NCBI GenBank assembly: GCA_016215645.1
Contig: JACRIX010000084.1
Span: 1-64,000 of the forward strand
Direction of reading: 5' to 3'
Source of the DNA: Rhodocyclales bacterium
GTDB lineage: Bacteria; Pseudomonadota; Gammaproteobacteria; Burkholderiales; Rhodocyclaceae
DNA: 64,000 nucleotides
A model generated the notes under the pieces. That model worked only from the letters and a program-made list of their open reading frames with translations, made no database searches and was not told the DNA's origin. Made by a program: the position numbers and the translations under genes. Positions 313 through 61,365 of this stretch are shown here, piece after piece; positions within the stretch are counted from its first letter, which is position 1, and every line of letters starts with the position of its first letter.

Positions 313-2676
313 ATGACCGCCGACCTTCAGAAACGCATCGCGCAACGCATCGCCACCGAACTCGGCGTCCGCCCGCAGCAGGTGGCCGCCGCCGTGCAGC
401 TGCTCGACGAGGGCGCCACCGTGCCCTTCATCGCCCGCTACCGCAAGGAAGTCACCGACAATCTCGACGACACCCAGCTGCGCAATCTGGAGGATCGCCT
501 GGGCTACCTGCGCGAACTGGAAGACCGCCGCGCCTCGATACTGTCGTCGATCGCCGAGCAGGGCAAGCTGACGCCGGAACTCGCCGCCGCGATCATCGCT
601 GCCGACAACAAGCAGGGTCTGGAAGACCTCTACCTGCCCTACAAGCAGAAGCGCCGCACCAAGGCCCAGATCGCCCGCGAGGCAGGGCTGGAACCGCTGG
701 CCGATGCGCTCTACGGCGACCCGACGCTGAGCCCGGAAGCCGAGGCGGCGAAGTACGTCAACACGCAAACCGAGCCGCCGGAGACGCACGTACCGGACGT
801 CAAGGCCGCGCTCGACGGCGCGCGCCAGATCCTGATGGAGCGCTTCAGCGAGGATGCCGCGCTGCTGGCCAAACTGCGCAGCTACCTCAACGAACACGCC
901 CTGCTCGCCTCCACCGTGGTCGCCGGCAAGGAAACCGAAGGCGCGAAGTTCCGCGACTGGTTCGACTTCCGCGAAGCCGTGGCGAGCATCCCCTCGCACC
1001 GCGCGCTGGCCCTGCTGCGCGGGCGCAACGAGGACATCCTGCGTCTGGCCCTGAAGACGGAGCCCGAGCTGCGCGACCCGCCCGAGGCCTCGCCCTGCAT
1101 AGCCATGGTGGCAGCGCACTGCGGCATCCGCGACCAGGGCCGTGCGGCCGACAAGTGGCTGGCTGAAACGGCACGCTGGGCCTGGATGGTGAAGCTCTCG
1201 CTGCACCTCGAAACCGAGCTGATGAACCAGTTGCGCGAGCGCGCCGAAGAAGAAGCGATCCGCGTCTTCGCCCGCAACCTGCGCGATTTGCTGTTGGCGG
1301 CCCCGGCCGGGCCGCACTCGGTGATCGGCCTCGACCCCGGCATCCGCACCGGCGTCAAGGTGGCGGTGGTTGATGCCACCGGCAAGCTGGTGGATACGGC
1401 CACGCTCTACCCGCACGAGCCGCGCCGCGACTGGGAAGGCTCGCTCGCCGCGCTGCGCCATCTGGCGCAGAAACATGGCGCGACGCTGATGGCGATCGGC
1501 AATGGCACGGCCAGCCGCGAGACCGACAAGCTGGCCGGCGAGCTGATGACCCGTCACCCGGAACTGAAGCTGAAAAAGATCACGGTGTCGGAAGCCGGCG
1601 CCTCGGTGTATTCCGCATCCGAACTGGCGGCGCTGGAGTTCCCGGACCTTGACGTTTCGATTCGCGGCGCGGTATCGATTGCGCGGCGCCTGCAGGACCC
1701 GCTGGCCGAGCTGGTGAAGATCGAGCCCAAGGCCATCGGCGTCGGCCAGTACCAGCACGACCTCAACCAGTCACGCCTGGCGCGGGCGCTGGATGCCGTG
1801 ATCGAGGACTGCGTCAACTCGGTTGGCGTGGATGTCAATACCGCCAGCGCCGCGCTGCTCAAGCGCATTGCCGGACTCAACACCACGCTGGCCGCCAACA
1901 TCGTCGCCTGGCGCGACACCCACGGCGCGTTTTCATCACGCGCCCAGTTGAAGGATGTGCCGCGCCTGGGCGAGAAGGCCTTCGAGCAGGCCGCCGGCTT
2001 CCTGCGTATCGCCCGGGGCGACAACCCGCTGGATGCCTCGGCGGTGCACCCGGAGGCCTACCCGGTGGTCGAGCGCATCCTTGCCGACATCAAGGCCGGC
2101 ATGCGGGAGCTGATCGGCGATACACGCCGCCTGCGCACACTCGATCCGAAAAAATACACCGACGAGCGCTTCGGCCTGCCGACGGTGCAGGACATCCTGG
2201 TCGAACTGGAAAAGCCCGGCCGCGATCCGCGTCCCGAGTTCAAGACGGCGTCATTTCGCGACGGCATCGAGGAACTCAAAGACCTCGAACCCGGCATGCA
2301 GCTCGAAGGCGTGGTAACCAATGTCACCAACTTCGGCGCCTTCGTCGACATCGGCGTGCATCAGGACGGGCTGGTGCACATCTCGGCCCTGTCCGAGCGC
2401 TTCGTGCGCGACCCGCACCAGGTGGTGAAGGCCGGCGACGTGGTGAAGGTCAAGGTGCTGGAGGTCGATGTCCCGCGCAAGCGCATCGCGCTGACCATGC
2501 GTCTCAGCGACGAAGCACGCAAGCCCGCCGCGCCGAATGGCGAACCGGCGCCCAAGCCAAGAGTCGGCGCTGGTGCTACGGCGAATTCGTCGTCCCGCGG
2601 CCGTCCCCAGGCGCCGACGCGTCCGGCGGCGCCGGCGGGCGCGATGGCCGACGCCTTCGCCCGCCTCAAGCGCTGA
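313..2676 (+). CDS. tex: Tex-family transcription accessory / RNA-binding protein
   Basis: Cytoplasmic nucleic-acid-binding protein of the Tex family, 787 aa, the usual family length. The N-terminal helical Tex domain covers about residues 1-190. A YqgF/RNase H-like fold begins near residue 337 ([17 protein letters not shown]), helix-hairpin-helix segments lie around 495-570, and an S1 RNA-binding domain at about 660-730 ([14 protein letters not shown]). The tail after residue 735 is low complexity, rich in Pro, Ala and Arg, and contains RVGAGATAN at about 749-757. That piece is encoded by one copy of the dispersed AGTCGGCGCTGG repeat. The gene is convergent with the isocitrate dehydrogenase gene, one base apart. 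Family assignment is firm; Tex's precise cellular role is poorly defined. Confidence 0.95.
2559..2586 (+). repeat. Dispersed 24-bp repeat, copy a (in tex)
   Basis: Core AGTCGGCGCTGG at 2562-2573 followed by TGCTACGGCGAA. In the tex frame it encodes RVGAGATAN in the disordered C-terminal tail. About 35 bp downstream is a near-inverted partner, CCAGGCGCCGAC, so the copy forms an imperfect palindrome of roughly 50 bp, as REP-type elements do. Confidence 0.75.
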
Positions 2677-2677
2677 C

Positions 2678-3712
2678 TTACTTCAGGCGTGCCACCAGTG
2701 CCTTGGCGTACTGGTCGGTGCTGGCCTTGCCGCCGAGGTCGCCGGTGCGGACATTGTCCGTGTTCAGCACGTCGTAGATGGTGCGGCGCAGGCGGTCAGC
2801 GAGGTCGCTGCGCTTGACATGGTCGAGCATCATGGCCGAGGCCAGCAGCAGCGCCGTGGGGTTGGCGATGCCCTTGCCGGCGATGTCCGGCGCCGAACCA
2901 TGCACCGCCTCGAAGATCGCCGCGTGTTCGCCGATGTTGGCGCCCGGGGTCATGCCCAGGCCGCCGACCAGGCCGGAGATCTCGTCGGAGAGGATGTCGC
3001 CGAACAGGTTGGTGGTCACCAGCAGGTCGAACTGCCAGGGGTTCATCACCAGCTTCATGGCGCAGGCGTCGATGATCACTTCCTCGAACTCGAACTTGCC
3101 GGCGTACTGCTCCTTGTACATCTGCTGCGCGGTTTCAAGGAAGATGCCGGTCAGCGCCTTCATGATGTTGGCCTTGTGCACCACCGTGACCTTCTTGCGG
3201 CCGTTGGCGACCGCGTAGTCGAAGGCGAACTTGAGGATGTTCTTCGAACCCTGGCGGGTATTCACGCCGGTGGCAATGGCGACGGCATGGGGATCGTTGT
3301 CGATCGGGATGTAGTGCTCGTAGCCCATGTAGAGGCCCTCGTTGTTCTCGCGGCAGAGCACCAGATCGATGTCCTCGAAGCGCCCGCCGGGCACCAGGGT
3401 CTTGGCCGGACGCAGGTTGGCGTAGAGCTTGTACTTTTCGCGCAGGCGCACGTTCGATGAGCGGTAGCCGCCGCCCGACGGCGTCTCCAGCGGGCCTTTG
3501 AGCGCCAGCCGGGTGCGGTCGATGGAGTCGAGCGTGGCTTGCGGCAGCGGATCGCCGGCGGCCTTGACGCCAGCCAGACCGGCAAGCTGAATGTCCCACT
3601 GAAAGGGCGCGCCCAGCGCGTCCAGCACCGCCACCGCGGCATCGGTGATTTCGGGGCCGATGCCGTCGCCGGGAATCAGGGTGGCTGGAATCAGGGTCTG
3701 GGCTGCGCTCAT
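2678..3712 (-). CDS. NAD-dependent isocitrate dehydrogenase (IDH3-like)
   Basis: Isocitrate/isopropylmalate dehydrogenase superfamily member, 344 aa, expected to decarboxylate isocitrate to 2-oxoglutarate in the TCA cycle. The substrate loop reads SSNVRLREKYKLYANLRP, followed by RENNEGLY, HKANIMKALTG and the metal-site region NLFGDILSDEISGL. In HGSAPDIAGKG the Asp-Ile pair stands where NADP enzymes of the E. coli type carry Lys-Tyr, which argues for NAD. Isopropylmalate dehydrogenase shares this pair, but the substrate loop and HKANIMK are more like NAD-IDH. No leu genes are nearby. GGAG is placed just before the ATG. A TATAAT box lies about 155 bp upstream. Confidence 0.85.
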   Translation of the reverse strand: MSAAQTLIPATLIPGDGIGPEITDAAVAVLDALGAPFQWDIQLAGLAGVKAAGDPLPQATLDSIDRTRLALKGPLETPSGGGYRSSNVRLREKYKLYANLRPAKTLVPGGRFEDIDLVLCRENNEGLYMGYEHYIPIDNDPHAVAIATGVNTRQGSKNILKFAFDYAVANGRKKVTVVHKANIMKALTGIFLETAQQMYKEQYAGKFEFEEVIIDACAMKLVMNPWQFDLLVTTNLFGDILSDEISGLVGGLGMTPGANIGEHAAIFEAVHGSAPDIAGKGIANPTALLLASAMMLDHVKRSDLADRLRRTIYDVLNTDNVRTGDLGGKASTDQYAKALVARLK

Positions 3713-3873: not shown

Positions 3874-3921
3874 CGCAGGCCTTATCTGCCCATACGCCGT
3901 GTATATCGTCCGACAACTCGC

Positions 3922-5392: not shown

Positions 5393-5395
5393 GGG

Positions 5396-9316: not shown

Positions 9317-10408
9317 TCAATTGATTTCCTCAAGCGGAACGCGCGACGCCAGGGCGCAGAACAGCTCATAGGCAACGGTGCCTGCCGCCTGGGCGACGTC
9401 ATCGGCGGAAAGGTACATCGCGCCCTCGCCTCCCCACAATGTCACCGTGGCGCCAACGCCGACTTCCGGCGGAAGGCCATTCAGGTCGATGCAGATCTTG
9501 TCCATGGAAACCCGTCCCAGCGTACGCGTGCGGCAACCGGCAACCACCACCGGCGTGCCGGTCGGCGCATGGCGCGGGTAGCCATCGGCGTAACCACAGG
9601 CGACAATCCCGACACGCATCGAATTCGCCGCAACGAAGCTGCTGCCATATCCCACCGTATCACCCGGAACAAGATCGCGCACGGCGATGAGTTCGCTTGC
9701 CAGCGTCATTACCGGGCGCAATCCGAGCTCCGCCGCCGACGTCATCGCCGGAAAGGGTGAACTACCATAAAGCATGATGCCGGGCCGCACCCAGTCGGCA
9801 TGGGATTCGGGGAAGCGCAGGATGGCGGCGGAGTTGGCCAGTGACGCCGGCAGGGAACGTCCTCCGGCCATGGCCAGGAAACGTTCCATCTGCACGCCGA
9901 TGCCGCGAGCTTCGTCGGCATCGGAGAAATGCGTCATCAGCACCACCGATTCCAGACAATCCGCGGCAAGCATTTTGTCGAGTGCGGACGCAAATTCATC
10001 GGCATTGAAGCCGAGACGGTTCATGCCGGTGTTCAGTTTCAGGTAAATCGCTTGTCGTCGCGGCAATCCGGCGCTGATCAGCGCATCGACCTGCCAATCG
10101 GTATGCAGCACCGGGGTAAGTTCAAGTTCGGAGCAGAGCGCGAAATCATCGGGCTGATACGGCCCCTCGAGCATCAGGATGGGATGGCGGAAGCCGGCAT
10201 CGCGCAACGCCATGGCTCCCTCGAATTCCACCAGCGCAAACCCGTCAGTGATCTCTGCGAGCGCATTTGCCGCATCCAGCAGCCCGTGTCCGTAAGCATC
10301 GGCCTTGACCACGCTCCAGATGCGGGACGTGCCGACATGGTGCCTGACAAGGCCGTGGTTGTGGCGCAGCGCACTCCAGTCGAGGCAAGCGCGTACCGGG
10401 CGGACCAT
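9317..10408 (-). CDS. alr: Alanine racemase
   Basis: PLP-dependent racemase that makes D-alanine for peptidoglycan, 363 aa. The PLP lysine is Lys35 in VVKADAYGHG. The second catalytic residue is the Tyr of TVGYGSSFVA in the C-terminal half, and the fold closes with VTLWGGEG. I chose the ATG at 10408 because family members begin a few residues before the first beta strand (RACLDW). A TTG at 10432 is in frame but less likely. First gene of alr-radA-ybbP. Confidence 0.95.
   Translation of the reverse strand: MVRPVRACLDWSALRHNHGLVRHHVGTSRIWSVVKADAYGHGLLDAANALAEITDGFALVEFEGAMALRDAGFRHPILMLEGPYQPDDFALCSELELTPVLHTDWQVDALISAGLPRRQAIYLKLNTGMNRLGFNADEFASALDKMLAADCLESVVLMTHFSDADEARGIGVQMERFLAMAGGRSLPASLANSAAILRFPESHADWVRPGIMLYGSSPFPAMTSAAELGLRPVMTLASELIAVRDLVPGDTVGYGSSFVAANSMRVGIVACGYADGYPRHAPTGTPVVVAGCRTRTLGRVSMDKICIDLNGLPPEVGVGATVTLWGGEGAMYLSADDVAQAAGTVAYELFCALASRVPLEEIN
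9443..9466 (-). repeat. Dispersed 24-bp repeat, copy i (in alr, diverged)
   Basis: Reverse-strand match with AGTCGGCGTTGG (one mismatch to the core) followed by CGCCACGGTG. It encodes VGVGATV in alr, strikingly like the RVGAGATAN encoded by copies a and d. Because this part of alr is conserved, the match may be convergent rather than inserted. Confidence 0.4.
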
Positions 10409-10464
10409 GCTCAGTATCCGCCGGACACCCAACGGGATGGATTGTTCATGACAGTTGCAATGCC

Positions 10465-13574: not shown

Positions 13575-14014
13575 AGGGCGCGTGCCATGACAATGGCGTC
13601 CTCGCGGCCGCCCCTGGCCGGGTAGTAATCGCGACGACGACCAATTTCGGAAAAATCGTGGCAACGATACAGGGCCAGGCCGGAGGCATTGCCGGGACGC
13701 ACCTCAAGCAACATGCGCGTCGCGCCCCAGGCCCGCGCCTGGTCAAAAAGGTAGTGCAGCAATGCAGAACCGCGACCACGGCGCTGCAATTCGGCCAGTA
13801 TCGTAATGTTGAGCAGGTGCGCCTCGTCGGGAGCCCGCATCATGACTGCGTATCCGGTCATGTGTCCGGCCTCGCGCGCCAGCCACGCGCCATGGCCGGC
13901 GGCAAGAGAATCGTAGAAATTGCCCCGCGTCCAGGGGAATCCATGGCAACGTTGTTCCGCGTCGGCCACGGTATCGAGATCCGTCAGTTGCATTTCGGCG
14001 TAGAGCGGTATCAC
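13571..14014 (-). CDS. rimI: Ribosomal protein S18 alanine N-acetyltransferase
   Basis: GNAT-family acetyltransferase of 147 aa. The acetyl-CoA binding signature is ELQRRGRGSALLHYLF, followed by LEVRPGNASGLALYRCHDF, characteristic of RimI. Its ATG overlaps the tsaB TGA by the ATGA motif. The tsaB-rimI pairing is widespread. Confidence 0.95.
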   Translation of the reverse strand: MIPLYAEMQLTDLDTVADAEQRCHGFPWTRGNFYDSLAAGHGAWLAREAGHMTGYAVMMRAPDEAHLLNITILAELQRRGRGSALLHYLFDQARAWGATRMLLEVRPGNASGLALYRCHDFSEIGRRRDYYPARGGREDAIVMARAL

Positions 14015-14700
14015 CTGACGCCTCCACGCGCGAGACGCTCGGCGGTGGTCAGGGCAACCTTGTCGCGCACGTAGATCGGCCGGGCCGAGGCAGCGATCCC
14101 GCCGAGGCCGGCCGCAAAGCGCGGGGCAGCGATTCGCAACACCGCGGCTGCGGTGGGACCCGCCTCCGTATCAACGCCCACCAAATCCGGTTTTCGCGCC
14201 ATCAGCACATCCCCATAGGCAGCAAAGCCATCCCCAACACCCCAGACTCCTTCAAGAGTCGGCGCTGGCGCTACGGCGGGACGTACGCACACCGGGGCCA
14301 GCAATTCGCGTGCGCCATCCGCGCCAATCGCGTAGGCCGCGCAGTAAATTTCGTTCATGCGGGCATCAAGGCATGCCCACACCCGCGCCCGCCCGGATGC
14401 CAGTGCCAAGGCTTCCAGCGTCGGTACCGGAAGCAGTGGTATGCCCAGTCCCCAGGCCAACCCCTGGGCCAGGCCACAGGCCATGCGCAGGCCGGTAAAA
14501 CTGCCGGGGCCCGCACCGAAGGCAATGCCGTCCAGTTGCGTTGGGGCAATGCCCGCCTCGGCCAACAGTTCATGAATCCAGGGCAGGACATGCCCCGAGC
14601 CGCCGTTGGGAAATTCACCCCTGCGCACAAGGATGTGTCCGTCCCGCCACAGGGCCACGGACAGACGTCGCGTGGCCGTCTCTATCCCAAGCAAATGCAT
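14011..14700 (-). CDS. tsaB: tRNA N6-threonylcarbamoyladenosine biosynthesis protein TsaB
   Basis: ASKHA-fold partner of TsaD/TsaE in t6A37 modification of ANN-decoding tRNAs, 229 aa. Begins LLGIETATRRLSVAL and contains the conserved FGAGPGSFTGLRMACGLAQG. The start at 14700 matches the family N-terminus. A stretch near the middle, VAPAPTLEG, comes from copy b of the dispersed repeat read in reverse. It sits in a variable part of the family, so function should survive. Confidence 0.94.
   Translation of the reverse strand: MHLLGIETATRRLSVALWRDGHILVRRGEFPNGGSGHVLPWIHELLAEAGIAPTQLDGIAFGAGPGSFTGLRMACGLAQGLAWGLGIPLLPVPTLEALALASGRARVWACLDARMNEIYCAAYAIGADGARELLAPVCVRPAVAPAPTLEGVWGVGDGFAAYGDVLMARKPDLVGVDTEAGPTAAAVLRIAAPRFAAGLGGIAASARPIYVRDKVALTTAERLARGGVR
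14254..14279 (+). repeat. Dispersed 24-bp repeat, copy b (in tsaB)
   Basis: AGTCGGCGCTGG at 14257-14268 followed by CGCTACGGCGG. It lies antisense to tsaB and encodes VAPAPTL in that gene. Confidence 0.75.
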
Positions 14701-15074
14701 GTTTCTTGCCGCGATCCGTTTGCCAGATTCCAGCCACCTGGCCGGTCCATCGCGAACCAGAGTGCCATCCAGAACCGCCACACCAGTTTCACTTTTTCCA
14801 TCCCCGGGCCCATGTCCCGAATAAACGACAGTCGCCCAAACGGCAGGAGGAATATCTTATCGTCTTTTCCCCTCGGTCCCACTTTCCCGACGCACCCGGC
14901 CTGCCCCAGGAAGCAAAAACGGATGCGAAGTCAAAAAGGACACTTACCCCCCGAGATACGGGCCGAAAACATGTAAAAAAGTTGATCCAGACAAAGAATC
15001 TTCGACTACACTGCGCTACCATTCGCACGGAATTCTTCGCTCCACTGTCATCACTCATCCTCAGGAGGTCATAC
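14701..15074. other. Divergent intergenic region tsaB / HU
   Basis: 374 bp without a recognised gene. It holds the start region of tsaB on the minus side and the HU promoter and ribosome binding site on the plus side. Short plus-strand frames cross it, but none has a ribosome binding site or family resemblance. Confidence 0.5.
14982..15012 (+). promoter_or_regulatory. Candidate sigma-70 promoter of the HU gene
   Basis: TTGATC at 14982-14987 and TACACT at 15007-15012, 19 bp apart, in a locally AT-rich stretch about 65 bp before the ATG. Confidence 0.4.
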
Positions 15075-26357: not shown

Positions 26358-27156
26358 CGTGACCGGCGGCCGGCAGGACAAGAGTCGGCGCCGGTGACAC
26401 GGCGTTGTCGATCAGTTGTTCGCTGGTGCGACCGAAACGGCGTTCGCGCTGCCGATAGGACGCAATGGCGGAATCCAGCGACGCATCGTCGAAATCCGGC
26501 CAGAGCGTATCGGTGAAATAGAGTTCGCTGTAGGCAAGCTGCCAGAGCAGGAAATTGCTGATCCGCTGCTCACCACCGGTACGAATGAAAAGGTCGGGCT
26601 CCGGCGCATAGGCCATAACCAGATGGGGTGCGAGATCCGCTTCGCCAAAGACGCCGACCTTCTCCGGGTGGGCCAGCGCCAACTGGTTCATTGCCTGCAG
26701 GATGTCCCAGCGTCCGCCGTAGTTGGCCGCTATGGTCAGGGTCAGGCGCGAATTGTTCGCCGTAAGGGCTTCGCCTTCGCGAATCAGTGCCACCAGCCGG
26801 GGCTCGAATGCCGACAGGTCGCCGACCACTTTCAGCCGGACTCCGTTGGCATGAAGGCGGCCGATTTCGTTTTGCAAGGCGCTGACAAAAAGATTCATGA
26901 GGAACGAGACTTCCTCGACCGGTCGGCGCCAGTTTTCCGACGAAAAGGCGAACAAGGTCAGATAGTCGACGCCGCGCGCGATGCAGGCCTTGACCGTGGC
27001 GCGCACAATTTCAACGCCCCGCTTGTGACCGGCGACACGCGGCATGAAGCGCTTCTTTGCCCAGCGCCCATTGCCGTCCATGATGATGGCGATGTGGCGC
27101 GGTACCTTGCCCACGTCGGGGATGGCCTGGGTCGAGCTGGTGAACTTTCCTGCCAT
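26350..27156 (-). CDS. uppS: Undecaprenyl diphosphate synthase
   Basis: cis-Prenyltransferase that makes the C55 lipid carrier precursor, 268 aa. Conserved blocks: [16 protein letters not shown] (catalytic Asp), [14 protein letters not shown], and [15 protein letters not shown]. The last residues, [15 protein letters not shown], extend past the normal end of the family and are encoded partly by copy c of the dispersed repeat. The stop then falls inside cdsA. Confidence 0.96.
26380..26404 (+). repeat. Dispersed 24-bp repeat, copy c (3' end of uppS)
   Basis: AGTCGGCGCCGG (one mismatch to the core) followed by TGACACGGCG, antisense to uppS. It encodes VSPAPTL at the protein's C-terminal tail. 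Confidence 0.65.
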
Positions 27157-40212: not shown

Positions 40213-41298
40213 ATGAACTTCGACTTCAACGAAGACCAGCGCGCACTGGCCGATACGCTACAGCGCTTCGTCAGCCGCGAATACAGCTTCGAAAGGCGCC
40301 GTGCCATCCGCGACTCAACAGCTGGCTGGAGCCGCGACGTCTGGCAGGGATTGGCCGACCTCGGCGTGCTGGCCATCAACATCGACGAGGACTACGGCGG
40401 CCTTGGCTACGGACCGCAGGAAACGGGGCTGGTGATGAACGCCGCAGGTAGAGGACTGCTGCTGGAGCCCTACCTGGCATCCGCCGTGATCGCGCCGGCC
40501 CTGATTCGCCGTACCACCAGCGCCGACTTTCAGGAACAATGGCTGCCCGCCATCGCCAGCGGCGAAGCCGTCGTTGTTCTGGCCCATGCCGATGCGCGCA
40601 GCGCGCCGGCCACCGAACTCGGCGGCAACCTCAGCGGACACAAGAGCGTGGTCGCGCATGGCGGCTGCGCCGACCTGTTGCTGGTCTCGGCGCAAATGCC
40701 CAACGGCGACACCGGGCTCTTTGCCGTCTCGCCCGGCGCCGACGGCCTCAGGCTGCGTGACTACCCGACGCTCGACGGCCAGCGCGCCGCAGACATCATC
40801 ATGGACAGCACGCCGGCGACGCGCATCGACGCCGGCGGCGCGCTCGACCAGATCGAGGCCGCGCTTGACATCGGCCTCGCGGCCTTGTGTGCCGAAGCTG
40901 TCGGCATCATGGAAGCCACGCTTGCCGCCACCACGGAATACCTCAAGACGCGCCAACAATTCGGCCAGCCTATCGGTCGCTTTCAGGCGCTGCAACACCG
41001 CATGGCCGACATGCTGTTGCACCTTGAACAGGCACGCTCGATGAGCTATCTGGCGGCGATGCATTGCACCGGCAAGGACGCGCCGGCACGGCAGCGCATA
41101 CTCTCTGCCGCCAAAGTCACCAGCGGCCAGGCCTGCCGCTTCGTCGCCCAGAACGCGGTGCAACTGCACGGCGGCATGGGCATGACCGACGAACTGATGC
41201 TCAGCCACTGGTTCAAGCGCCTGACCACCATCGAGATGAGCTTCGGCGACACCGACAGCCATCTTGCCCGCTTCGCCAGGCTGTCGCGCGCCGCATGA
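40213..41298 (+). CDS. Acyl-CoA dehydrogenase, PimD-like small subunit
   Basis: 361 aa partner of the upstream dehydrogenase. Begins MNFDFNEDQRALADTLQRFV and keeps the C-terminal helix bundle (TRQQFGQPIGRFQALQHRMADM) and QLHGGMGMTDELMLSHWFKR. Neither of the two known catalytic Glu positions is obviously filled, so it may be the non-catalytic half of a heteromer, as in steroid-degrading FadE pairs. Residues RRTTSADFQ are encoded by copy j of the dispersed repeat. The stop overlaps the next start by ATGA. Confidence 0.87.
   Translation: MNFDFNEDQRALADTLQRFVSREYSFERRRAIRDSTAGWSRDVWQGLADLGVLAINIDEDYGGLGYGPQETGLVMNAAGRGLLLEPYLASAVIAPALIRRTTSADFQEQWLPAIASGEAVVVLAHADARSAPATELGGNLSGHKSVVAHGGCADLLLVSAQMPNGDTGLFAVSPGADGLRLRDYPTLDGQRAADIIMDSTPATRIDAGGALDQIEAALDIGLAALCAEAVGIMEATLAATTEYLKTRQQFGQPIGRFQALQHRMADMLLHLEQARSMSYLAAMHCTGKDAPARQRILSAAKVTSGQACRFVAQNAVQLHGGMGMTDELMLSHWFKRLTTIEMSFGDTDSHLARFARLSRAA
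40507..40530 (-). repeat. Dispersed 24-bp repeat, copy j (in acyl-CoA dehydrogenase)
   Basis: Minus-strand AAAGTCGGCGCTGG followed by TGGTACGGCG. The core is an exact match and the rest differs little from copy a. It encodes RRTTSADFQ in the host gene. Confidence 0.6.
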
Positions 41299-46261: not shown

Positions 46262-47023
46262 ATGCTCGAGATCCTCTACCGCGACGACCACCTCGTCGCC
46301 GTACACAAACCCGCCGGCCTGCTGGTCCATCGCAGCGACCTTGATCGCCACGAAACCCGCTTCGCCGTGCAATTGCTGCGCGACCAGATCGGCCGCCATG
46401 TTCATCCCGTGCACCGGCTGGACAGAGGCACTTCGGGCGTACTTTTATTCGCCTTGGATGCCGTGAGCGCGAGCGTCGTCGGTGGTCAATTCGAGCGCGA
46501 CGAAGTCGCCAAAACCTATCTCGCCATCGTACGCGGCTGGCCGCCGGAAAGCGGCCTGATCGACCATGCCCTGAGCCGGCGCTTCGACGACTACGGACGC
46601 AAGCTGGCGGCGGAAGACCGCCCGCCAGCGCTGGCGGCGGTTACGGCCTTCTGCCGCCTTGGTAGCGTCGAGATCGCCGAGCAGGTCGAGCGCTATCCAC
46701 AGTCGCGCTACGCCTTGCTTGAACTCATGCCGGAATCAGGTCGCCAGCATCAGTTACGTCGCCACCTCAAGCACATCGCCCATCCCATCATCGGCGACGC
46801 CACCTGGGGCAAGGGCGTGCATAACCGCTTCTTCCAGCAACGCTACGGCTGCAACCGCCTGTTGCTGGCCTGCACCCGGCTCGATCTGCGGCATCCCCAC
46901 AGTGGTGGTCCACTTCGTATCAAAGCCGCGCCCGAAGTGAGTTTTGCAGCCGTGGCGGCGGCTTTGGGATGGGCCGAATACCTTGCCCCATCAAGAGTCG
47001 GCGCTGGTGCCACGGCGAATTAG
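46262..47023 (+). CDS. truC: tRNA pseudouridine synthase C family protein
   Basis: RluA-like synthase expected to make pseudouridine-65 in tRNA, 253 aa. Catalytic motif PVHRLDRGTSGVLLFALD (Asp), and LLELMPESGRQHQLRRHLKH. The final residues [10 protein letters not shown] are encoded by copy d of the dispersed repeat, which also supplies the stop codon region (GAATTAG). Without it the protein would end about ten residues earlier. Confidence 0.92.
   Translation: MLEILYRDDHLVAVHKPAGLLVHRSDLDRHETRFAVQLLRDQIGRHVHPVHRLDRGTSGVLLFALDAVSASVVGGQFERDEVAKTYLAIVRGWPPESGLIDHALSRRFDDYGRKLAAEDRPPALAAVTAFCRLGSVEIAEQVERYPQSRYALLELMPESGRQHQLRRHLKHIAHPIIGDATWGKGVHNRFFQQRYGCNRLLLACTRLDLRHPHSGGPLRIKAAPEVSFAAVAAALGWAEYLAPSRVGAGATAN
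46993..47020 (+). repeat. Dispersed 24-bp repeat, copy d (3' end of truC)
   Basis: AGTCGGCGCTGG at 46996-47007 followed by TGCCACGGCGAAT. Encodes RVGAGATAN in the same frame as copy a in tex, then TAG. Confidence 0.75.
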
Positions 47024-47534: not shown

Positions 47535-49415
47535 ATGACCACCACCCAAGAAACCACAGTCGCAGGGTTCGATACCCTCGGACTGGCAAAACCATTGCTC
47601 GACGCCCTCGCCGACGTGGGCTACGAAACCCCTTCGCCGATCCAGGCCGCCTGCATTCCCGTGCTGCTGGCCGGCCACGACCTGCTGGGCGAAGCCCAGA
47701 CCGGCACCGGCAAGACCGCCGCCTTCGCGCTGCCGCTGCTGCAAAAGATCGATATCAAGCGCGCCGTGCCGCAGGCCCTGATCCTGACGCCGACGCGCGA
47801 GCTGGCGATCCAGGTCGCGGAAGCCTTGCAAAAGTATGCCCACCACCTGCCCGGCTTCCACGTCCTGCCGATCTACGGCGGCCAGAGCATGGTGGTGCAG
47901 CTGCGCGCGCTGTCGCGCGGCACCCACGTCATCGTCGGCACCCCCGGGCGCGTCATGGACCACCTGGAGCGCAAGAGCCTGGTGCTCAACAACCTGCAGA
48001 CGCTGGTGCTGGACGAAGCCGACGAAATGCTGCGCATGGGCTTCATCGACGACGTCAAGTGGATCCTCGAACACACGCCGGCCGAGCGCCAGACCGCGCT
48101 GTTCTCGGCCACCATGCCCGACGTGATCCGCCGCGTGGCGCACGAGCACCTGCGCGAGCCGAAGGAAATCAAGATCCGCTCGGCCACCTCGACCGTGGTC
48201 ACCACCAGCCAGTCGTATTGCCAGACGCATAGCGGACAAAAGCTGGAAGCCCTGACGCGCATCCTCGAAGTGGAAGACGACTTCGATGCCGCCATCGTCT
48301 TCGTCCGCACCAAGACCGCCACCGTAGAACTCGCCGACAAGCTGGAGGCGCGCGGCTATTCGGTCGCGGCCTTGAACGGCGACCTGACCCAGGGCCTGCG
48401 CGAACAGGTGATCGAGCGCCTCAAGGCCGGCACCATCGACATCGTCGTCGCCACCGACGTTGCCGCGCGTGGCCTCGACGTGGCGCGCATCAGCCACGTC
48501 ATCAACTACGACGTGCCCTACGACACCGAGGCCTACGTGCATCGCATCGGCCGCACCGGCCGCGCCGGCCGCACCGGCCGCGCCATCCTGTTCCTGGCGC
48601 CGCGCGAGATGTACATGCTGAAGCTGATCGAGCGCGCCACCAAACAGAAAATCACCGCCATCACCATGCCGACACCGGGCGAGGTAGCCAACCGCCGTGT
48701 CGCCCAGTTCACGCAGCAGGTGGTGGACATCATCAAGTCCGAGAAACTCGATTTCTTCTTCGACGTGGTGCGCCGCATGGAAAGCGAGCAGGACATCGCC
48801 GCCCGCGAGATCGCCGCCGCCCTGGCCTGGCTGGCGACACGCGAGCGTCCGCTGCAGATGCCGGGCGCCAACGACCATGCACCGCGCGAGGCGGCTACGG
48901 CGCCGGCCGCCGTAGCGTCAGCGCCGACTTTTGCAGCTGACGCGGAACGCAAGCCGACGAAACCCCGCGCCAAGCCCGCCGAGGACTACCCGGCCGCCGA
49001 TGCGCCGCGCGAACGCGCCACGAAGCGCGGTGACACGCCGGTGAAACTGCAAAGCTTCCCCCCCGGCACGCTGGCGCGCTACCGCATCGAGATCGGCCGC
49101 AACCAGGGCGTGCTGCCCAAGGAAATCGTCGGCGCCATCGCCAACGAGGCCGGCATCGCCGGCAAGGACATCGGCCAGATCAACCTGTTCGACGACTACA
49201 GCTCGGTGGAACTGCCGGCCAACCTGCCGGCCGACCTGATGGACGTGCTGCGCCGCATTCGCGTGCGCCAGTTCGCGCTCAAAACGCGCGTCATGGAAGC
49301 CGGCGAGTTCGTCGATACCCGCCCACCGCGTCGCGCAACTCCGGCGGCAAAGAAGCCGGACTGGAAGAAGCCCGCCGGCGCCAAGCCGGAGTGGAAGGCA
49401 AAGCGAGAACGCTGA
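47535..49415 (+). CDS. deaD: DEAD-box ATP-dependent RNA helicase (CsdA/DeaD-like)
   Basis: 626 aa RNA helicase for ribosome biogenesis and RNA unwinding at low temperature. Motifs in order: Q motif near [20 protein letters not shown], Ia [39 protein letters not shown] DbpA-type RNA-binding domain lies at about residues 500-580 ([20 protein letters not shown]), then a basic tail. The linker between the cores and this domain holds repeat copy e (AVASAPTFA). The leader can fold over its ribosome binding site. Confidence 0.93.
48908..48931 (-). repeat. Dispersed 24-bp repeat, copy e (in deaD)
   Basis: Minus-strand AAAGTCGGCGCTGA then CGCTACGGCG. Its 3' part pairs with GCTACGGCG just upstream (48894-48902) to give a 9-bp stem, so the element looks like a half-duplicated palindrome. 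Encodes AVASAPTF in the helicase linker. Confidence 0.6.
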
Positions 49416-55190: not shown

Positions 55191-55288
55191 GTCGACAGCC
55201 TCGATCATTGGGATGCGCGAGGCTAACACATCCCGACAATACCGGACTCCGTTGCGTCGCCCGAGGCCGGCCGGACCACTGCTGCGCG

Positions 55289-55294
55289 TATAAT
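55289..55294 (+). promoter_or_regulatory. Candidate -10 box of prfB
   Basis: Perfect TATAAT 27 bp upstream of the prfB ATG, with no -35 of quality. A short leader with AGGAAT near the start codon fits. Confidence 0.45.
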
Positions 55295-55320
55295 TTGCAT
55301 TTTTCGCCGCAGGAATTTTC

Positions 55321-56425
55321 ATGGAAGCCGAACGCATCAATGCCGTCGCCAACCGTATCGCCGACCTCAGCGGGCGCGGCGAGCAACTGCGGAGGTATCT
55401 TTGACTACGATGGCAAAGCGGAAAAGCTCGCGGAACTGAACCAGATCCTCGAGGATCCCAAGCTCTGGGACGATGCCGAGCGCGCACAGGCCCTCGGCAA
55501 GGAAAAGAAGTCGCTGGAAGCCATTGTCGGCACGCTCTCGGGCGTCAGCACCACACTGGCAGACGCACGCGACCTGTTTGAACTGGCGCGCGAGGAAAAC
55601 GACGAAGACACCTTGATCTCGGTCGAGAACGATCTCGATGCCACCGAGAAGCAGGTTGCCGACCTTGAGTTCCGGCGCATGTTCGCCAACCCGGCGGATC
55701 CCAACAACTGCTTCATCGACATCCAGGCCGGCGCCGGCGGCACCGAAGCCTGCGACTGGGCCTCGATGCTGTTGCGCCAGTACCTGAAATACTGCGAGCG
55801 CAAGGGCTGGAAAACCGAGCTGCTGGAACAGACCGACGGCGACGTCGCCGGCATCCGCAGCGCCTCGATCAAGGTCGAAGGGGACTATGCCTATGGCTTT
55901 CTGCGCACCGAAACCGGCGTCCATCGCCTGGTGCGCAAATCGCCCTTCGATTCCTCGGGCGGCCGCCACACCAGCTTCGCCAGCCTTTACGTGTATCCCG
56001 AGATCGACGATTCGATCGAGGTCGAGATCAATCCGGCTGACCTGCGCACCGACACCTTCCGCGCGTCCGGGGCCGGCGGCCAGCACATCAACAAGACCGA
56101 CTCGGCGATCCGCATTACCCACGTGCCGACCGGCATCGTCGTGCAATGCCAGAACGACCGCTCGCAGCATCGCAACCGCGCCGAGGCCATGGCGATGCTG
56201 AAGTCACGCCTGTACGAACTGGAATTGCGCAAGCGCCAGGCCGAGGCCGACAAACTTGAAGCCGGCAAGACCGACGTCGGCTGGGGCCACCAGATCCGCA
56301 GCTACGTGCTGGACAATTCCCGCATCAAGGACCTGCGTACCAACGTCGAGATCTCCGCCACGCAAAAGGTGCTCGACGGCGACCTCGATGCGTTCATCGA
56401 AGCCAGCCTGAAGCAGGGCGTATAG
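55321..56425 (+). CDS. prfB: Peptide chain release factor 2, with programmed +1 frameshift
   Basis: Reads UGA/UAA and triggers peptide release. The ATG at 55321 opens a 27-codon zero frame ending CTT TGA (55399-55404). After a +1 slip at CTT the ribosome reads on from 55403 to 56425, giving 367 aa. Just before is GGAGG, an SD-like stimulator, the same layout as in E. coli. Later motifs: SPF ([14 protein letters not shown]) and GGQ ([13 protein letters not shown]). Low RF2 raises frameshifting and so restores RF2. Co-oriented with lysS, but a toxin-antitoxin pair lies between. Confidence 0.96.
55390..55405 (+). promoter_or_regulatory. prfB programmed frameshift site
   Basis: CGGAGGTATCTTTGAC: SD-like GGAGG, slippery CTT and in-frame UGA followed by C. 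The +1 slip continues in the main RF2 frame. Confidence 0.95.
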
Positions 56426-56449
56426 AAAGTCGGCGCTGGAGCGACGACG
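56426..56449 (+). repeat. Dispersed 24-bp repeat, copy f (just after prfB)
   Basis: AAAGTCGGCGCTGG at 56427-56440 then AGCGACGACG, starting right after the prfB stop. This is the only copy outside a coding region, and it lies between prfB and the toxin-antitoxin operator. Confidence 0.65.
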
Positions 56450-56454
56450 CTTTA

Positions 56455-57165: not shown

Positions 57166-58686
57166 ATGACCGACACCACCCCCGCCCCCGCCGCCCAGCA
57201 GGACGAAAACCGCCTGATCGCCGAACGCCGCGAGAAACTCGCCGCCTGGCGCGCAACTGGCAAGGCATTCCCCAACGACTTCTCGCGTGAGAATCTCGCC
57301 GGGCGCCTCGACGAGCTCTACAGCGCCAAGACGCGCGAAGAACTCGAAGCCACGCCGATCGGGGTCAAGGTCGCCGGCCGCATCATGTTGAAGCGCGTCA
57401 TGGGCAAGGCCAGCTTCGCGAGCATCCAGGACGTCTCCGGCCGCATCCAGATTTTCGTCAGCAACGACATCACCGGCGAGGCCACGCACAAGGAATTCAA
57501 AGGCTGGGATCTGGGCGACATTGTCGGCTGCGAGGGCACGCTGTTCAAAACCAAGACCGGAGAACTGACGGTGCAATGCACCAGCATCCGCCTGCTGACC
57601 AAGTCGCTGCGGCCACTGCCGGAAAAATTCCACGGCCTCACCGACGTCGAACAAAAGTACCGCAGCCGCGAACTCGACCTGATCACCAACGAGCAGACGC
57701 GCTTCACCTTCGTCGCCCGCAGCCGGATGATCCAGTCGATCCGCAATTACATGATGCACCACGGCTTCCTCGAAGTCGAAACGCCGATGATGCATCCCAT
57801 CCCCGGCGGCGCCGCAGCCAAGCCCTTCACCACCCACCACAACGCGCTGGACATGGAACTCTTCCTGCGCATCGCGCCCGAGCTTTACCTCAAGCGCCTG
57901 GTGGTGGGCGGCTTCGAGAAGGTGTTCGAGGTCAATCGCAACTTCCGCAATGAAGGCCTTTCGCCGCGCCACAATCCCGAATTCACCATGATGGAGTTCT
58001 ACGAGGCCTACACGGATTACCGCCGCCTGATGGACTTCACCGAGGGCCTGCTGCGCCACTCCGCACGCGAGGCACTGGGCACCGAAGTCTTCGAGTACCA
58101 GGGGCGCACCCTGGACCTTTCCAAGCCGTTTGCACGGTTGACCATCGCCGGCGCGATCCATCACTACCATCCCGGCTACAGCCTCGAACAACTGAATGAC
58201 ATCGAATGGATCCGGCAGAAGCTGAAGGACCTGCGCGTCGACCTCAAGGCGCCGCACCTGGCCAACGCCGGCCTCGGCACACTGCAACTGGTGCTGTTCG
58301 AAGAGACCACCGAAGCCGAGCTGTGGGAGCCGACCTACATCATCGACTACCCGGCCGAAGTCTCGCCGCTGGCCCGCGCCAGCGACAGCAATCCGTCGAT
58401 CACCGAACGTTTCGAGCTGTTCATCGTCGGCCGCGAGATCGCCAACGGCTTCTCTGAGCTGAACGACCCCGAGGACCAGGCGGCGCGCTTCCTGCAGCAG
58501 GCCAAGGCCAAGGAGGCCGGTGACGAAGAAGCGATGTACTACGACGCCGACTACATTCGCGCCCTGGAGTACGGCCTGCCGCCCACCGGCGGCTGCGGCA
58601 TCGGCATCGACCGCCTGGTGATGCTGCTGACTGATTCGGCATCGATCCGCGACGTGATCCTGTTCCCGCAGATGCGCCGCGAATGA
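57166..58686 (+). CDS. lysS: Lysyl-tRNA synthetase (class II)
   Basis: 506 aa. N-terminal OB-fold anticodon domain at about 60-170 ([21 protein letters not shown]), then the class II core with motif 2 [26 protein letters not shown] and motif 3 [13 protein letters not shown]. The start at 57166 follows the toxin gene closely. prfB-lysS adjacency is the common order; here the toxin-antitoxin pair intervenes. Confidence 0.97.
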
Positions 58687-60515
58687 CGGAGCCCATCGTC
58701 CCCGCCGAACTTGCGTTCGCCGGGGACGGCACACCGTTCTCGCCGCGCTACGGAGACGTCTACCATTCCAGCCACGGCGGCCTCGATCAGGCCCGCCATG
58801 TCTTCCTGGCCGGCAACGATCTGCCCGCGCGCTGGACCGCACGCTCGCGCTTTGTCATTTTTGAGACGGGCTTCGGGCTCGGCCTGAACTTTCTCGCCAC
58901 CTGGCAGGCGTGGCGCCAGCAACCGGGCGCCGGCCGACGCCTGCACTACCTTGCCGTCGAGAAGCACCCGTTTCGCCGCGATGAGCTGAAGCAATTGCAC
59001 CTGCGCTGGCCCGAACTTGCCGCGCTGGCAAACGATCTGCACGCGCAATGGCCCTTGCCGCTTCCCGGATTGCATCGCCTGGATTTTGGCGACGTGATCC
59101 TGACGCTGTGCTTCGGCGATGCCGCTGAACTGCTGCCAACATTGACGCTTGCTGCCGATGCGATTTACCTCGATGGCTTTGCGCCCGACCGCAATCCGGA
59201 GCTGTGGACCGAACAGATTGCGGCACAACTGGCGCGGATTGCCGCAGCCGGGGCCACCCTGGCGACCTGGAGCGTCGCCGGCGAGGTGCGTCGCCGTCTC
59301 GCCAGCGCCGACTTTCAGGTTGAACGCCGGCCCGGTTTCGGCGGCAAGCGCGACATGCTGGTCGGACACCGGCCCGGCCCGCCGGTATCGGCAGGTACCC
59401 GATCTTCCCGACGGATCGCCGTGATCGGCGCCGGCATTGCCGGTGCCTCGATCGCCCATGCCCTCGCAGGACGCGGGCACAGCGTAACGGTTATCGATGC
59501 GGCAGCCGGCCCGGCGGCCGGCGCATCGGGAAACCACGCCGGCGTGTTCCGCCCACTGCCCTCGCAAGACGACGGCAAGCTGGCGCGGCTATTGCGCGCC
59601 GGCTTCCTGCTTGGTCGGCGACAGTTCGGCGCCTTGTCCGAAGTCCGCTGCGGCTGGACCGGAGCGCTGCACATCGCGCGCGACGAAAAACACGAAGAAA
59701 CCCAGCGCCGCATCGCCGACGCCCACGCCCTGCCCGCGGACTTTTGCCGTTACGTCACCCGCGAGGAAGCGGCTGGCCTGGCGGCATGGCCCGTGGCCCG
59801 CGGCGGCTGGTGGTTCCCGCAGGCGGGCTGGATCAATCCGCCCAGCCTCTGTCGCAGTCTGCTGCGCGGAATCGACTGTCGGTTCGACGTCGCCGTGTCG
59901 AGGCTGGAACGCTCCCAGGGCAGGTGGCGCATCCATGGAAATGAAATGGTGATCGAAGCCGATGAGGTGGTACTGGCCAACGGTATCGACGCGGCGGCGC
60001 TGGTACCCCAGTTCATGTTGCCGATCCGCCCGGGGCGCGGCCAGGTCAGCCTTGTTCCGGAAGCCGCCACGCCGGCCATGAACATCGTGGCGACCCGGCT
60101 CGGCTACGTCACCCCCGCCGTCGATGGAATCCGCTGTGCCGGAGCAACCACGCAGGTGGACGACCTCGATCCCGAGTCGCGGGTCGCCGACCATGTCGAA
60201 AACCTCTTCCGTCTCGACATGCTGTTGCCGGGATTTGCCACGGGGCTGTCTGCGGAGGCGCTCCAGGGGCGCGTTTCCTTCCGGCCGATGTCACCGGACC
60301 GTTTGCCTCTCGTCGGTCCGCTCTCCGCCAGCGAAGGCTTGTGGATCAACAACGGCTTCGGCGCCCGCGGGCTGGTGTTTGCCTCGATTTGTGCGGAGCT
60401 GCTGGCCAGCCAGATTGACGGCGATCCCTTGCCGCTTGAAATCGATCTGGTAAGGGCACTCGACCCGAAGCGATATGGCGTCCGCGCCCAAACGCGCACC
60501 CGGACGACTTTGTAA
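58683..60515 (+). CDS. mnmC: Bifunctional tRNA mnm5s2U34 methyltransferase/oxidoreductase MnmC
   Basis: 610 aa fusion of an N-terminal SAM-dependent methyltransferase (about 1-235, [15 protein letters not shown] and [15 protein letters not shown]) and a C-terminal FAD-dependent oxidoreductase ([21 protein letters not shown]). It finishes the modified wobble uridine of several tRNAs, including that for Lys, which fits its coupling to lysS (ATGA overlap). Residues RRLASADFQ are encoded by repeat copy h in reverse. Confidence 0.94.
59292..59315 (-). repeat. Dispersed 24-bp repeat, copy h (in mnmC)
   Basis: Minus-strand AAAGTCGGCGCTGG followed by CGAGACGGCG. Encodes RRLASADFQ. The site is in a region usually conserved for VERRPGFG, so this could be a coincidental match in GC-rich coding sequence. 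Confidence 0.5.
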
Positions 60516-60527: not shown

Positions 60528-60600
60528 TTGATTGCCCCGGTCCCCATCAGGCCCGGCGCAACGTTACTGTGCTCATGCATTCTTCACACAGGAGCACACC

Positions 60601-61365
60601 ATGGACACCACGCAATCCCTTCCCCTGAACCAATCTGCCACCCCGGCATCCACGCATCCGCTGCTTCTCGTGGCGGCGGCTTCAGTCACGGTGCTCAGCC
60701 TCGCCGGTGCCGCCTATTTTGCGGGATGGCTACCCGGTCCGGCCCCGCACAAAACAGACGCAGAGCGCCCGCTGGTCGCCAGCAGCCAGCCGGCCACCGC
60801 CCCCATTTCGGTGCAACAGACAGTGACCGCTCCACACGAGAAACCCAAGGCAGCGGTGGTCCGCCAGACCGAGGTTGCCGCGCCCGTGGTGCGTCGCGCA
60901 AACCCCACACCGGGCGCGCGCACCTATGAACCCTTTTCGCCACCCACGGTCACCGTCGCGCCAGCGCCGACTCCGGTTGCAGTCACCATGCCGACCATCT
61001 GCCGCGAATGCGGCACCGTCGAATCGGTACGCGAAGTCGCCGTCGAAGCCAAGGGCAGCGGCGGCGGCGCCGTCGCCGGCGGCCTCGTCGGCGGCCTCAT
61101 CGGCAACCAGTGGGGCCGTGGCGCAACGCGCGACATCGCCACGGTTCTTGGTGCCGTCGGCGGGGCCTACGCCGGCAACCACATCGAAAAATCGATCAAG
61201 GAAAGCAAGCGCTATGACGTCAGTGTGCGCTTCGACGACGGCAGCACCCGCACGTTCAGCGGCGACACGCCACCCGCATGGCATAGCGGCGATCGGGTGA
61301 AACTTCAGAACGGGACGCTGATCAACGGCGGCGGCAGGTCCGTCACCGACATGGGCACGACCTGA
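60601..61365 (+). CDS. Glycine-zipper 2TM outer-membrane-type protein (SlyB-like)
   Basis: 254 aa. N-terminal hydrophobic helix (about 22-46, ending PLLLVAAASVTVLSLAGAAYFAGWL), then a Pro/Ala/Val-rich linker. The glycine-zipper block follows at about 155-185 (GGGAVAGGLVGGLIGNQWGRGATRD and GAVGGAYAGNHIEKSI) and ends in a soluble tail with FDDGSTRTFSGDT. Related proteins sit in the envelope. The CRECGTV motif before the zipper is typical. VTVAPAPTPVAVT is encoded by repeat copy g. Confidence 0.85.
   Translation: MDTTQSLPLNQSATPASTHPLLLVAAASVTVLSLAGAAYFAGWLPGPAPHKTDAERPLVASSQPATAPISVQQTVTAPHEKPKAAVVRQTEVAAPVVRRANPTPGARTYEPFSPPTVTVAPAPTPVAVTMPTICRECGTVESVREVAVEAKGSGGGAVAGGLVGGLIGNQWGRGATRDIATVLGAVGGAYAGNHIEKSIKESKRYDVSVRFDDGSTRTFSGDTPPAWHSGDRVKLQNGTLINGGGRSVTDMGTT
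60951..60974 (-). repeat. Dispersed 24-bp repeat, copy g (in glycine-zipper gene)
   Basis: Minus-strand GAGTCGGCGCTGG then CGCGACGGTG, encoding VAPAPTP in the linker of the host protein. Confidence 0.6.

Follow-up and report, generated by a model that had tools for sequence, protein, structure and literature searches.

A dispersed 26-bp motif of Sulfuritalea-like genomes that seems to change in place: a possible self-DNA watermark

HIP1 of cyanobacteria is an 8-bp palindrome, abundant and mostly intragenic, which evolves in place and whose reader is debated. Dialects of uptake sequences are, to our knowledge, known solely from Neisseriaceae and Pasteurellaceae. For the DNA uptake sequence (DUS) such dialects have been published (PMC3630211), and its copies have been described as occupying permissive places of the core genome and as appearing by recombination (PMC2397512). 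A similarly evolving motif in another betaproteobacterial family, with no ComEA above the cut-off in its genomes, would let one test whether watermarks need the canonical uptake machine or stem from some broader drive. Here we describe a candidate, motif A, a 26-bp sequence, RARAGTCGGCGCTGGYGNNACGGCGA, dispersed in the window, by which we mean the whole stretch of 64,000 nucleotides of contig JACRIX010000084.1 from a Rhodocyclales bacterium, and in related genomes. We read motif A, with a probability of roughly 0.4, as a self-DNA watermark that some trans-acting reader maintains, by analogy with DNA uptake sequences. The core string of the repeat was not found in the papers searched, the titles and abstract openings of the papers listed on Sulfuritalea genomes and repeats say nothing of motif A, and no paper was found that links DNA uptake sequences with Rhodocyclales. 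An Rfam search of the window gave a tRNA as its sole match.

The repeat core sits within motif A, whose information spans positions -3 to +22 around the core, with two near-middle positions almost free. The first-pass annotation had estimated a length of about 24 bp; there are 26 bp, with 24 constrained positions, over which we scored each candidate, counting as a site anything of at least 20/24. Ten copies in the window reach this cut-off, seven of them at 22-24 and three, those at 56425, 60950 and 9442, at 21:

2559..2584, + strand: motif A, 24/24, near the C-terminus of a Tex-like gene (ORF 313-2676, +), in the RVGAGATAN frame
9442..9467, - strand: weak motif A, 21/24, within an alanine racemase gene (9317-10432, -); also 21/24 in G006; probably a coincidence
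14254..14279, + strand: motif A, 23/24, in ORF 14011-14781 (-), just past a TsaD-family (PF00814) domain match; common to G006, G008 and G019
26380..26405, + strand: motif A, 22/24, at the junction of CdsA-like (25554-26381, -) and UppS-like (26350-27156, -) genes; common to G006, G008 and G019
40506..40531, - strand: motif A, 24/24, within an acyl-CoA dehydrogenase gene (40213-41298, +)
46993..47018, + strand: motif A, 24/24, at the 3' end of a pseudouridine synthase gene (46262-47023, +); also in G006
48907..48932, - strand: motif A, 22/24, in a DEAD-box helicase gene (47535-49415, +), where it separates the matches to the dimerization and DbpA domains; common to six further genomes
56425..56450, + strand: weak motif A, 21/24, overlapping the stop codon of ORF 55208-56425 (+); no orthologue aligned
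59291..59316, - strand: motif A, 24/24, within a gene with Methyltransf_30 and DAO domains (58683-60515, +), predicted to be MnmC-like from its domain make-up; common to G002 and G019
60950..60975, - strand: weak motif A, 21/24; no orthologue aligned; may be a chance match

All seven exact cores that had been reported are there, at 2562+, 14257+, 46996+, 56428+, 40517-, 59302- and 60961-, six of them where they had been placed and one a base away from the 56429 given for it. The three near-exact cores are also present, at 26383+, 48918- and 9453-, up to two bases from their earlier positions. Two more cores with one mismatch, at 5381+ and 26673-, score below 20/24 on the full motif. The suspicion that some copies are coincidental may hold for the three at 21/24.

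The dispersed family is real. With up to one mismatch the core matches 12 times in the window, whereas 100 shuffles gave 0.95 matches on average and never more than 3. Motif A scores are bimodal, with 58 sites of at least 20/24 in 390 kb and 0 for the reversed motif, and the density is about 200 sites per Mb (198 in the sampled G002). Could such abundance simply follow from codon use, or from a peptide that recurs? The first-pass annotation had noticed the same short peptides recurring from copy to copy, and indeed 66 of 76 sense copies are read in the frame K/R-V-G-A-G-x-T-A. It had also held that a genome-wide count near that expected from codon use would speak against a repeat family; the exact core occurs 352 times in the 3.4-Mb assembly G000, while the reversed pattern occurs 3 times. 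Moreover, the 72 antisense and 64 intergenic copies among the 212 sites share the consensus of the sense copies, and an origin in codon use or peptides was rejected as hardly credible.

Copies occur in both orientations and mostly in coding sequence, as had been claimed: 148 of the 212 sites lie in genes called by our own gene caller, on which the split between coding and intergenic sites depends, 76 of them sense and 72 antisense. Since a single consensus is found in both gene directions and between genes, motif A is constrained as DNA. It is about threefold enriched between genes, which hold 30% of the sites and 10% of the bases, and its copies take locally permissive positions. Genes with coding sites have orthologues in 9.3 genomes, against 7.0 at random coding positions, many of these sites being copies of a few shared ones; if intergenic sites are included and an orthologue is demanded at both flanks, 83 of 113 motif A sites and 489 of 600 random sites have one, so that motif A sites are not more conserved. 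The sites show no orientation bias, no gene-end bias (antisense copies are scarce in the outer fifths of genes, 4 and 7 of 72) and no even spacing (variance/mean 0.79, not significant). Singlets dominate, with one inverted pair within 90 bp and three within 300 bp among the 212 sites.

The motif is concentrated in the focal group, 31 genomes of one GTDB genus that is probably Sulfuritalea-like. All 31 carry the core, at 20-548 copies per genome, against 0-11 in 30 other relatives. The largest number, 548, is that of G005, which is 99% complete; core counts of the main spelling are lower in the T-spelling genomes described below; and G017, nested inside the genus in a DprA tree, is nearly without the motif (20 cores, about 23 sites per Mb). 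Strict genus specificity was rejected on two grounds: a scan of 399 genomes gave 17 with a match (G000, G284 at 32 copies, and 15 more having 1-3 each), and sites occur in the sister genus g32 (13 in 100 kb of G186, 10 in 80 kb of G061). No site of at least 20 was found in 620 kb sampled from G184, G079, G119, G034, G036, G035 and G032, and a de novo k-mer search of four sister genera (400 kb in all) gave no comparable motif. Six places were tried in comparing stray copies with Sulfuritalea-like loci, of which four could be spanned and two could not; at two of those four, in L352/L033, and at a third, in L353/L243, the relative carries motif A in the matching position, while at L347/L184 it lacks the motif, yet without a 26-bp gap.

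Spelling differs among species at the same sites. An AGTT spelling (T spelling) has 199, 232 and 229 copies in three genomes of three species, G001, G016 and G028, and 0-4 in the other 28; an AGTAGAC spelling has 29 copies in G011 and none in the 30 others; and in g32 the motif ends in ACGGCA, with GGCA replacing GGCG in 18 of 20 sites displayed. All five orthologue groups with a T member, which represent at least four distinct sites, also have C members, and one further site is shared between T and C. T-spelling genomes retain C at two of the five shared sites. At 40506..40531, for example, motif A stands at the same place in 18 genomes and is spelled with T in G001, G016 and G028, while in G024 it is interrupted by a hairpin. 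Among pairs in which both copies pass the score, identity at shared sites is 0.94 at fixed positions, 0.82 in the flanks and 0.56 at the central pair. Because some species have their own spelling at matching places, something in the cell probably reads motif A. Across the 31 species the motif also preserves a history of change in place at many sites.

If motif A is a watermark, it would be a 26-bp double-stranded DNA signal with 24 constrained positions, changing in place through substitution or short replacement and held nearly identical across sites by the favour of a putative trans-acting reader. The likeliest process would be preferential uptake or recombination of DNA bearing motif A, as with Neisseriaceae DNA uptake sequences, and an altered specificity of the reader would then write a new spelling into old sites. 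That such a reader exists, and that it is tied to uptake or recombination, we infer; no gene encoding it was found.

Did the copies arrive instead as inserted elements adding residues to their host proteins, as had been proposed? Among 56 motif A sites with an alignable orthologue lacking the motif, none has an orthologue 24-28 bp shorter, a sample in which fresh insertions are under-represented, since most comparable sites are old and shared, and recent singleton sites mostly could not be aligned. Three of these orthologues are shorter, by 33, 57 and 77 bp, and several are longer. A clean insertion was not seen in several orthologue comparisons, the nearest cases being one pair 23 bp shorter across a 392-bp unaligned span and another at -30. 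Alleles of the same length without the motif score 13.2/24 in register, against 7.5 for random 26-mers. Motif A seems to change where it stands, in contrast to a REP that inserts, and the proposal of an inserted element adding residues finds no support here.

It is nevertheless possible, if unlikely, that motif A is a REP-like miniature repeat, unusual for its lack of GTAG and its tolerance of genes, which a RAYT (HUH) transposase or some relative once disseminated; homing or conversion of A into A would then homogenise the resident copies and place hairpins inside them. Hairpins are indeed nested in motif A, in 10 of 15 matches of hairpin B (one with half of A), 3 of 4 of C and 2 of 2 of D, with motif A covering about 0.5% of the DNA. 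Genes with a Y1_Tnp domain, not all of them RAYT, are found in 26 of the 31 genomes. Of 37 RAYT-like matches, 21 genes were read, and 14 of these have motif A no more than 200 bp from one end, compared with 59 of 562 control genes measuring 0.5-1.2 kb, although those 21 are related and do not make 21 independent cases. The threefold intergenic enrichment fits as well, and so do the indel-rich surroundings, where 21 of 260 pairs at motif A sites have at least 20 unmatched positions (30 of 3148 at random sites), and a site common to G002, G016, G023 and G028 that is absent elsewhere along with 77-147 bp. Intragenic REPs are known (PMC3733652). These nested hairpins and RAYT neighbours keep a REP-related origin alive. 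However, there is no clean 26-bp footprint, no GTAG (or CGTC) tag stands beside a palindrome in the consensus, singlets dominate, and inserted copies are not expected to differ in spelling at inherited sites. Further, the RAYT units are bounded by terminal repeats of their own, with motif A variously inside or outside these, and no Y1_Tnp match was found in G007, G012, G001 and G019, of which G007 (380 cores) and G019 (310 cores) are rich in motif A. As regards secondary structure, a check proposed by the first-pass annotation, a single copy folds weakly (z -0.8 to -1.5, three copies). The REP-like character first suggested is partly supported: the nested hairpins and RAYT neighbours speak for it, the missing footprint and the weak fold against it. 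If it proves true, this would be a REP-like family living mainly inside genes. The nested hairpins and RAYT neighbours are not predicted by the watermark view.

Another idea, which we hold to be quite improbable, is that a protein of chromosome organisation, repair or segregation binds motif A, which would be comparable to Chi, KOPS or HIP1 and selected at each site. The constraint on DNA in both orientations, the A-like alleles at sites without the motif and the genome-wide spread agree with it, and some copies contain GCTGGTGG, which we take to be the E. coli Chi octamer. Chi or KOPS would, however, have a strand bias, and none is seen in the complete genome G002: over 20 windows of 20 kb there are 43 sites on the + and 36 on the - strand, with 9+/11- where GC skew is positive and 34+/25- where it is negative (p 0.44, 79 sites). 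Replication-strand bias was rejected, since stretches of G002 carry both strands without a link to GC skew. Besides, about 24 constrained positions far exceed what such sites need, and selection site by site would make the respelling of about 200 sites hard.

What of the machinery for a watermark? ComEC is found in 30 of the 31 genus genomes and DprA above the cut-off in 18 of 21 searched, with none above the cut-off in G005. ComEA (TIGR00426) above the cut-off is absent from all 31 and present in 12 of 61 genomes overall; in the genus, TIGR00426 matches are confined to ORFs of 550-940 aa in 19 genomes and absent from the other 12, and a PF12836 search of the complete G002 gave no match. The lack of ComEA counts less because 18 of the 30 other relatives also have none above the cut-off, which may be strict. 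PF11773 (ComGE) was matched in none of the 61 genomes. G017 retains both ComEC and DprA, and it is in this genome that HHH_3 matches fall in ORFs of 181-314 aa. Counted against a watermark are the indel-rich surroundings, the C retained in T-spelling genomes, the lack of ComEA, G005 without DprA, G017 with ComEC and DprA, the few inverted pairs, the absence of even spacing and of orientation or gene-end bias, a length about double that of known DUS, and the lack of greater conservation once intergenic sites are included. A more specific proposal, rather doubtful at present, is that of a dialect-bearing self-DNA watermark, roughly double the length of known uptake sequences, whose reader would belong neither to the ComEA pathway nor to the classical transposases. 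This might be a system of uptake or recombination that works without ComEA, or else a REP-derived sequence that homes into its own copies already in place, whereby a large part of the set in a genome would respell together.

Motif A resembles several known systems in part. Like HIP1 it is abundant, mostly intragenic and evolving in place, while at 26 bp and non-palindromic it is built otherwise. With Pasteurellaceae uptake signal sequences, which differ from it in sequence, it shares abundance and a presence both in and between genes. It lacks the gene-end bias of uptake sequences described by van Passel 2008 (PMC2346458). REP and REPIN with their RAYTs (PMC3116915, PMC3733652, PMC8266576) are like it in belonging to a 20-40 bp class of high copy number, with RAYT genes nearby and intragenic copies known, while motif A has no GTAG tag, only a weak palindrome, mostly singlet and mostly intragenic copies, no clean insertion footprint and a spelling that varies in place. 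It differs from the Neisseriaceae DUS in its 26 bp against 10-12, in having fewer copies per genome and only a few inverted pairs, in the lack of ComEA above the cut-off and in the hairpins nested within it; still, both are short, present in hundreds of copies, in both orientations, genic and intergenic, and both take locally permissive places, form lineage dialects and are gained and lost in place (PMC3630211, PMC2397512).

The first-pass annotation had claimed that the core AGTCGGCGCTGG is repeated in the window, and its seven exact copies were confirmed; at up to one mismatch there are 12 matches, against a mean of 0.95 and a maximum of 3 in shuffled sequences. The whole assembly (G000; 3.41 Mb, 79.6% complete) contains 352 exact cores, split 166 to 186 between the strands, versus 3 for the reversed pattern. 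The same bounded 26-bp motif A, RAR-AGTCGGCGCTGG-YG-NN-ACGGCG-A, emerges from 37 aligned copies in G000 and from 45 in a complete comparison genome, G002; its information drops off outside about -4 and +22. In the window plus 20 orthologous loci, 390 kb in total, 58 sites match at 20 or more of 24 positions while the reversed motif tops out at 19. The density in G002 is 198 per Mb in the 400 kb sampled, which extrapolates to about 750 sites genome-wide. Other words are also over-represented in relatives: an unrelated 11-mer, TCCTCGGCTTC, has 16 copies in 51 kb of G018 (L091, L247, L248) versus 0.15 expected, and TGTGGGAGCGG, which we take to resemble pseudomonad REP sequences, has 8 in 140 kb of G034 (L277-L283) versus 0.02.

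Across the GTDB genus of G000 (31 genomes), which we infer to be Sulfuritalea or close kin, exact cores range from 20 (G017) to 548 (G005) per genome. They number 0 to 11 in each of 30 other relatives (control counts, 0 to 6). The full motif is present in at least 117 sequence stretches, and many of the 80 matches listed are from Sulfuritalea, Rhodocyclaceae or Rhodocyclales. It also occurs in 37 IMG/VR viral_contigs stretches (L053-L089), which may be of phage or host origin, and L120 (JALHPU010000019.1) has an unusual local cluster of five exact full motifs in 5.2 kb. Across the order, 17 of 399 genomes sampled carry the 22-base form (reversed control, 0 in all): G000, G284 from another genus of the same family (32 copies), and 15 others at 1-3 copies. 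Genus g32, also of this family, has 13 A sites in 100 kb of G186 and 10 in 80 kb of G061, with GGCA instead of the Sulfuritalea-like GGCG in 18 of the 20 shown; seven further genomes sampled had no A site. At six places with stray copies, compared with Sulfuritalea-like loci, the relative has A at the same place in three and lacks both A and a 26-bp gap in one, and two could not be spanned. Stray copies thus probably travel together with homologous genes.

What is conserved in A? Among 212 sites, where each genome's copy of an orthologous site counts separately, 76 are sense, 72 antisense and 64 intergenic according to our own simple gene caller, by which 90% of bases are coding. Thus, 70% of copies are intragenic, and since only about 10% of bases are intergenic, A is roughly threefold enriched between genes. 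Sense copies encode K/R-V-G-A-G-x-T-A in 66 of 76 cases, and 69 of 72 antisense copies are confined to two of three frames; the frames may have been filtered for harmless peptides. Sense, antisense and intergenic copies have an identical consensus, and in each group the "free" central pair, too, mostly has no T first and no A second, so that A is constrained as DNA, not as peptide. A is not evenly spaced (variance/mean 0.79, p 0.27) and shows neither a strand bias in G002 nor a preference for gene ends; in the latter respect it differs from uptake signal sequences (van Passel 2008; PMC2346458). Inverted pairs are few (3 within 300 bp among the 212 sites, plus one in L027). Genes with coding A sites have more orthologues than genes at random coding positions; for all A sites, the orthologous-flank fraction is no higher than random (83/113 vs 489/600).

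The spelling of A differs among lineages. The AGTTGGCGCTGG spelling, in its 22-base form, has 199, 232 and 229 copies in G001, G028 and G016, respectively, and 0-4 in the other 28 genomes, while AGTAGACGCTGG has 29 in G011, which also has 199 standard cores, and none in the other 30. Five of 33 orthologue groups have a member with the AGTT (T) spelling, and all five also have members with the standard one (C); as one physical site accounts for two of these groups, they cover at least four sites, and a single T could be a chance mutation. Comparison of such orthologous positions indicates that the spelling changes in place. At five shared sites, the T-spelling genomes have T at three and C at two. 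Identity between orthologous sites is 0.94 at fixed positions (biased upward, as both copies were required to score at least 20), 0.82 in flanks, falling to 0.56 at the central pair, for which random A copies agree at 0.36; selection on one copy alone gives 0.87, 0.77 and 0.60, respectively.

If A were inserted as a unit, orthologues without A should be shorter by its length. The widest comparison covered 555 distinct sites from 347 loci, 56 of which have an alignable orthologue without A; these are mostly old and shared sites, many singletons lying in unalignable flanks. Fewer than 6 of 26 positions are unmatched in 39 and more in 16, and one lies inside a 77-bp deletion. An orthologue 24-28 bp shorter was found at 0 of the 56 comparable sites. 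Shortening by 33, 57 or 77 bp was seen a single time for each length, and many orthologues are longer by 12 to 48 bp, in part because a hairpin splits A. In an earlier, separate comparison, 20 or more positions were unmatched in 21/260 A pairs versus 30/3148 random-site pairs, and 6-19 in 64/260 versus 57/3148, so that A is located in indel-rich places. Of the 21 pairs with at least 20 unmatched, 18 are listed, and 16 of these trace to a single shared place at which other genomes lack 77-147 bp. Alleles of equal length that lack A score 13.2 in register versus 7.5 (sd 2.3) for random 26-mers, although the 22 query sites include several at one physical place and the score is raised by shared coding context; in our reading, these alleles are decayed copies of A or its precursors. 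At one singleton, compared between close relatives (L094 vs L104), everything past a gene end is replaced, which looks like recombination.

Small hairpins of several kinds are nested within A, always at fixed points. Across the 1.50 Mb of 80 loci, matches within A are 10 of 15 for hairpin B (one with half of A only), 3 of 4 for C and 2 of 2 for D; B lies at the central pair in both orientations. Individual cases of hairpins and inserts are located as follows.

Hairpins and inserts associated with motif A (locus and position)
L101 9532, L102 10952, L103 7884, L249 15295, L258 19556, L262 9894, L264 12756: hairpin of about 36 bp at the centre of A, either orientation
L032 625, L038 14581, L109 2922, L363 3201: second insert of about 24 bp, TATGCG.AGCGGTATCCCC...
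L027 1500, L049 11773: inverted pair of A copies, near-perfect hairpin of about 56 nt, terminator-like

The 36-bp hairpin has arms TGCC[TG][GC]/[GC][CA]GGCA flanking CCGCTTCGCGG, and the arm bases co-vary in several copies. In all four known cases, including one from another genus (G284), the second insert lies between AGT and CGG of A. The inverted pair in L049, between called genes, folds with a z of -13.

These nested hairpins, together with RAYT neighbours, speak for A being a REP-like repeat once spread by a RAYT transposase, of the kind treated in PMC3733652, PMC3116915 and PMC8266576, an origin that we consider rather unlikely. Y1_Tnp-domain genes are found in 26 of the 31 genus genomes. 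A (at least 20/24) lies within 200 bp of an end in 14 of 21 RAYT-like genes, read out of 37 weaker-scoring Y1_Tnp matches, versus 59 of 562 control genes, with a nominal p of about 1e-9 that ignores relatedness and larger intergenic spaces. The repeats at the boundaries of these RAYT units are different ones (AAAGGGGYCAG... or GGGGACAGACCACGG...), with A inside some units and outside others. We read A as a favoured neighbourhood or landing place and not as RAYT's own terminal repeat. Upstream of one RAYT gene (L336), a unit of about 70 bp comprising the RAYT terminal repeat and A is duplicated in tandem.

Does A then serve DNA uptake? ComEC is found in 30 of the 31 genus genomes, missing only from the incomplete G000, and DprA above cut-off in 18 of 21 searched; G005 (99% complete, richest in A) has no DprA above cut-off. 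ComEA (TIGR00426) is above cut-off in 0 of the 31 and in 12 of 61 genomes overall. Weaker matches in ORFs of 550-940 aa, seen in 19 of the 31 (the other 12 have none), are taken for Tex because the window's own match falls in its Tex gene. ComEA above cut-off is likewise missing in 18 of the 30 other relatives, so this is no strict proof of absence; PF12836 has no match in complete G002. In G017, where A is nearly gone, ComEC and DprA are still present, along with HHH_3 matches in ORFs of 181, 213 and 314 aa; a DNA tree built from DprA alone places this genome within the genus, so it has probably lost A. These results do not link A to competence.

The two weightiest findings are the in-place spelling change in some lineages and the lack of a clean insertion footprint where checked; both fit a signal that a reader would maintain through drive or selection. 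Because ComEA, an expected feature, was looked for and failed to appear, A is not classed as a DNA uptake sequence (DUS). According to PMC2397512, DUS occupy permissive places of the core genome, are highly conserved and arise by recombination. The closest known case is DUS with dialects (PMC3630211); we would say that A seems to evolve like DUS, without filing it as one.
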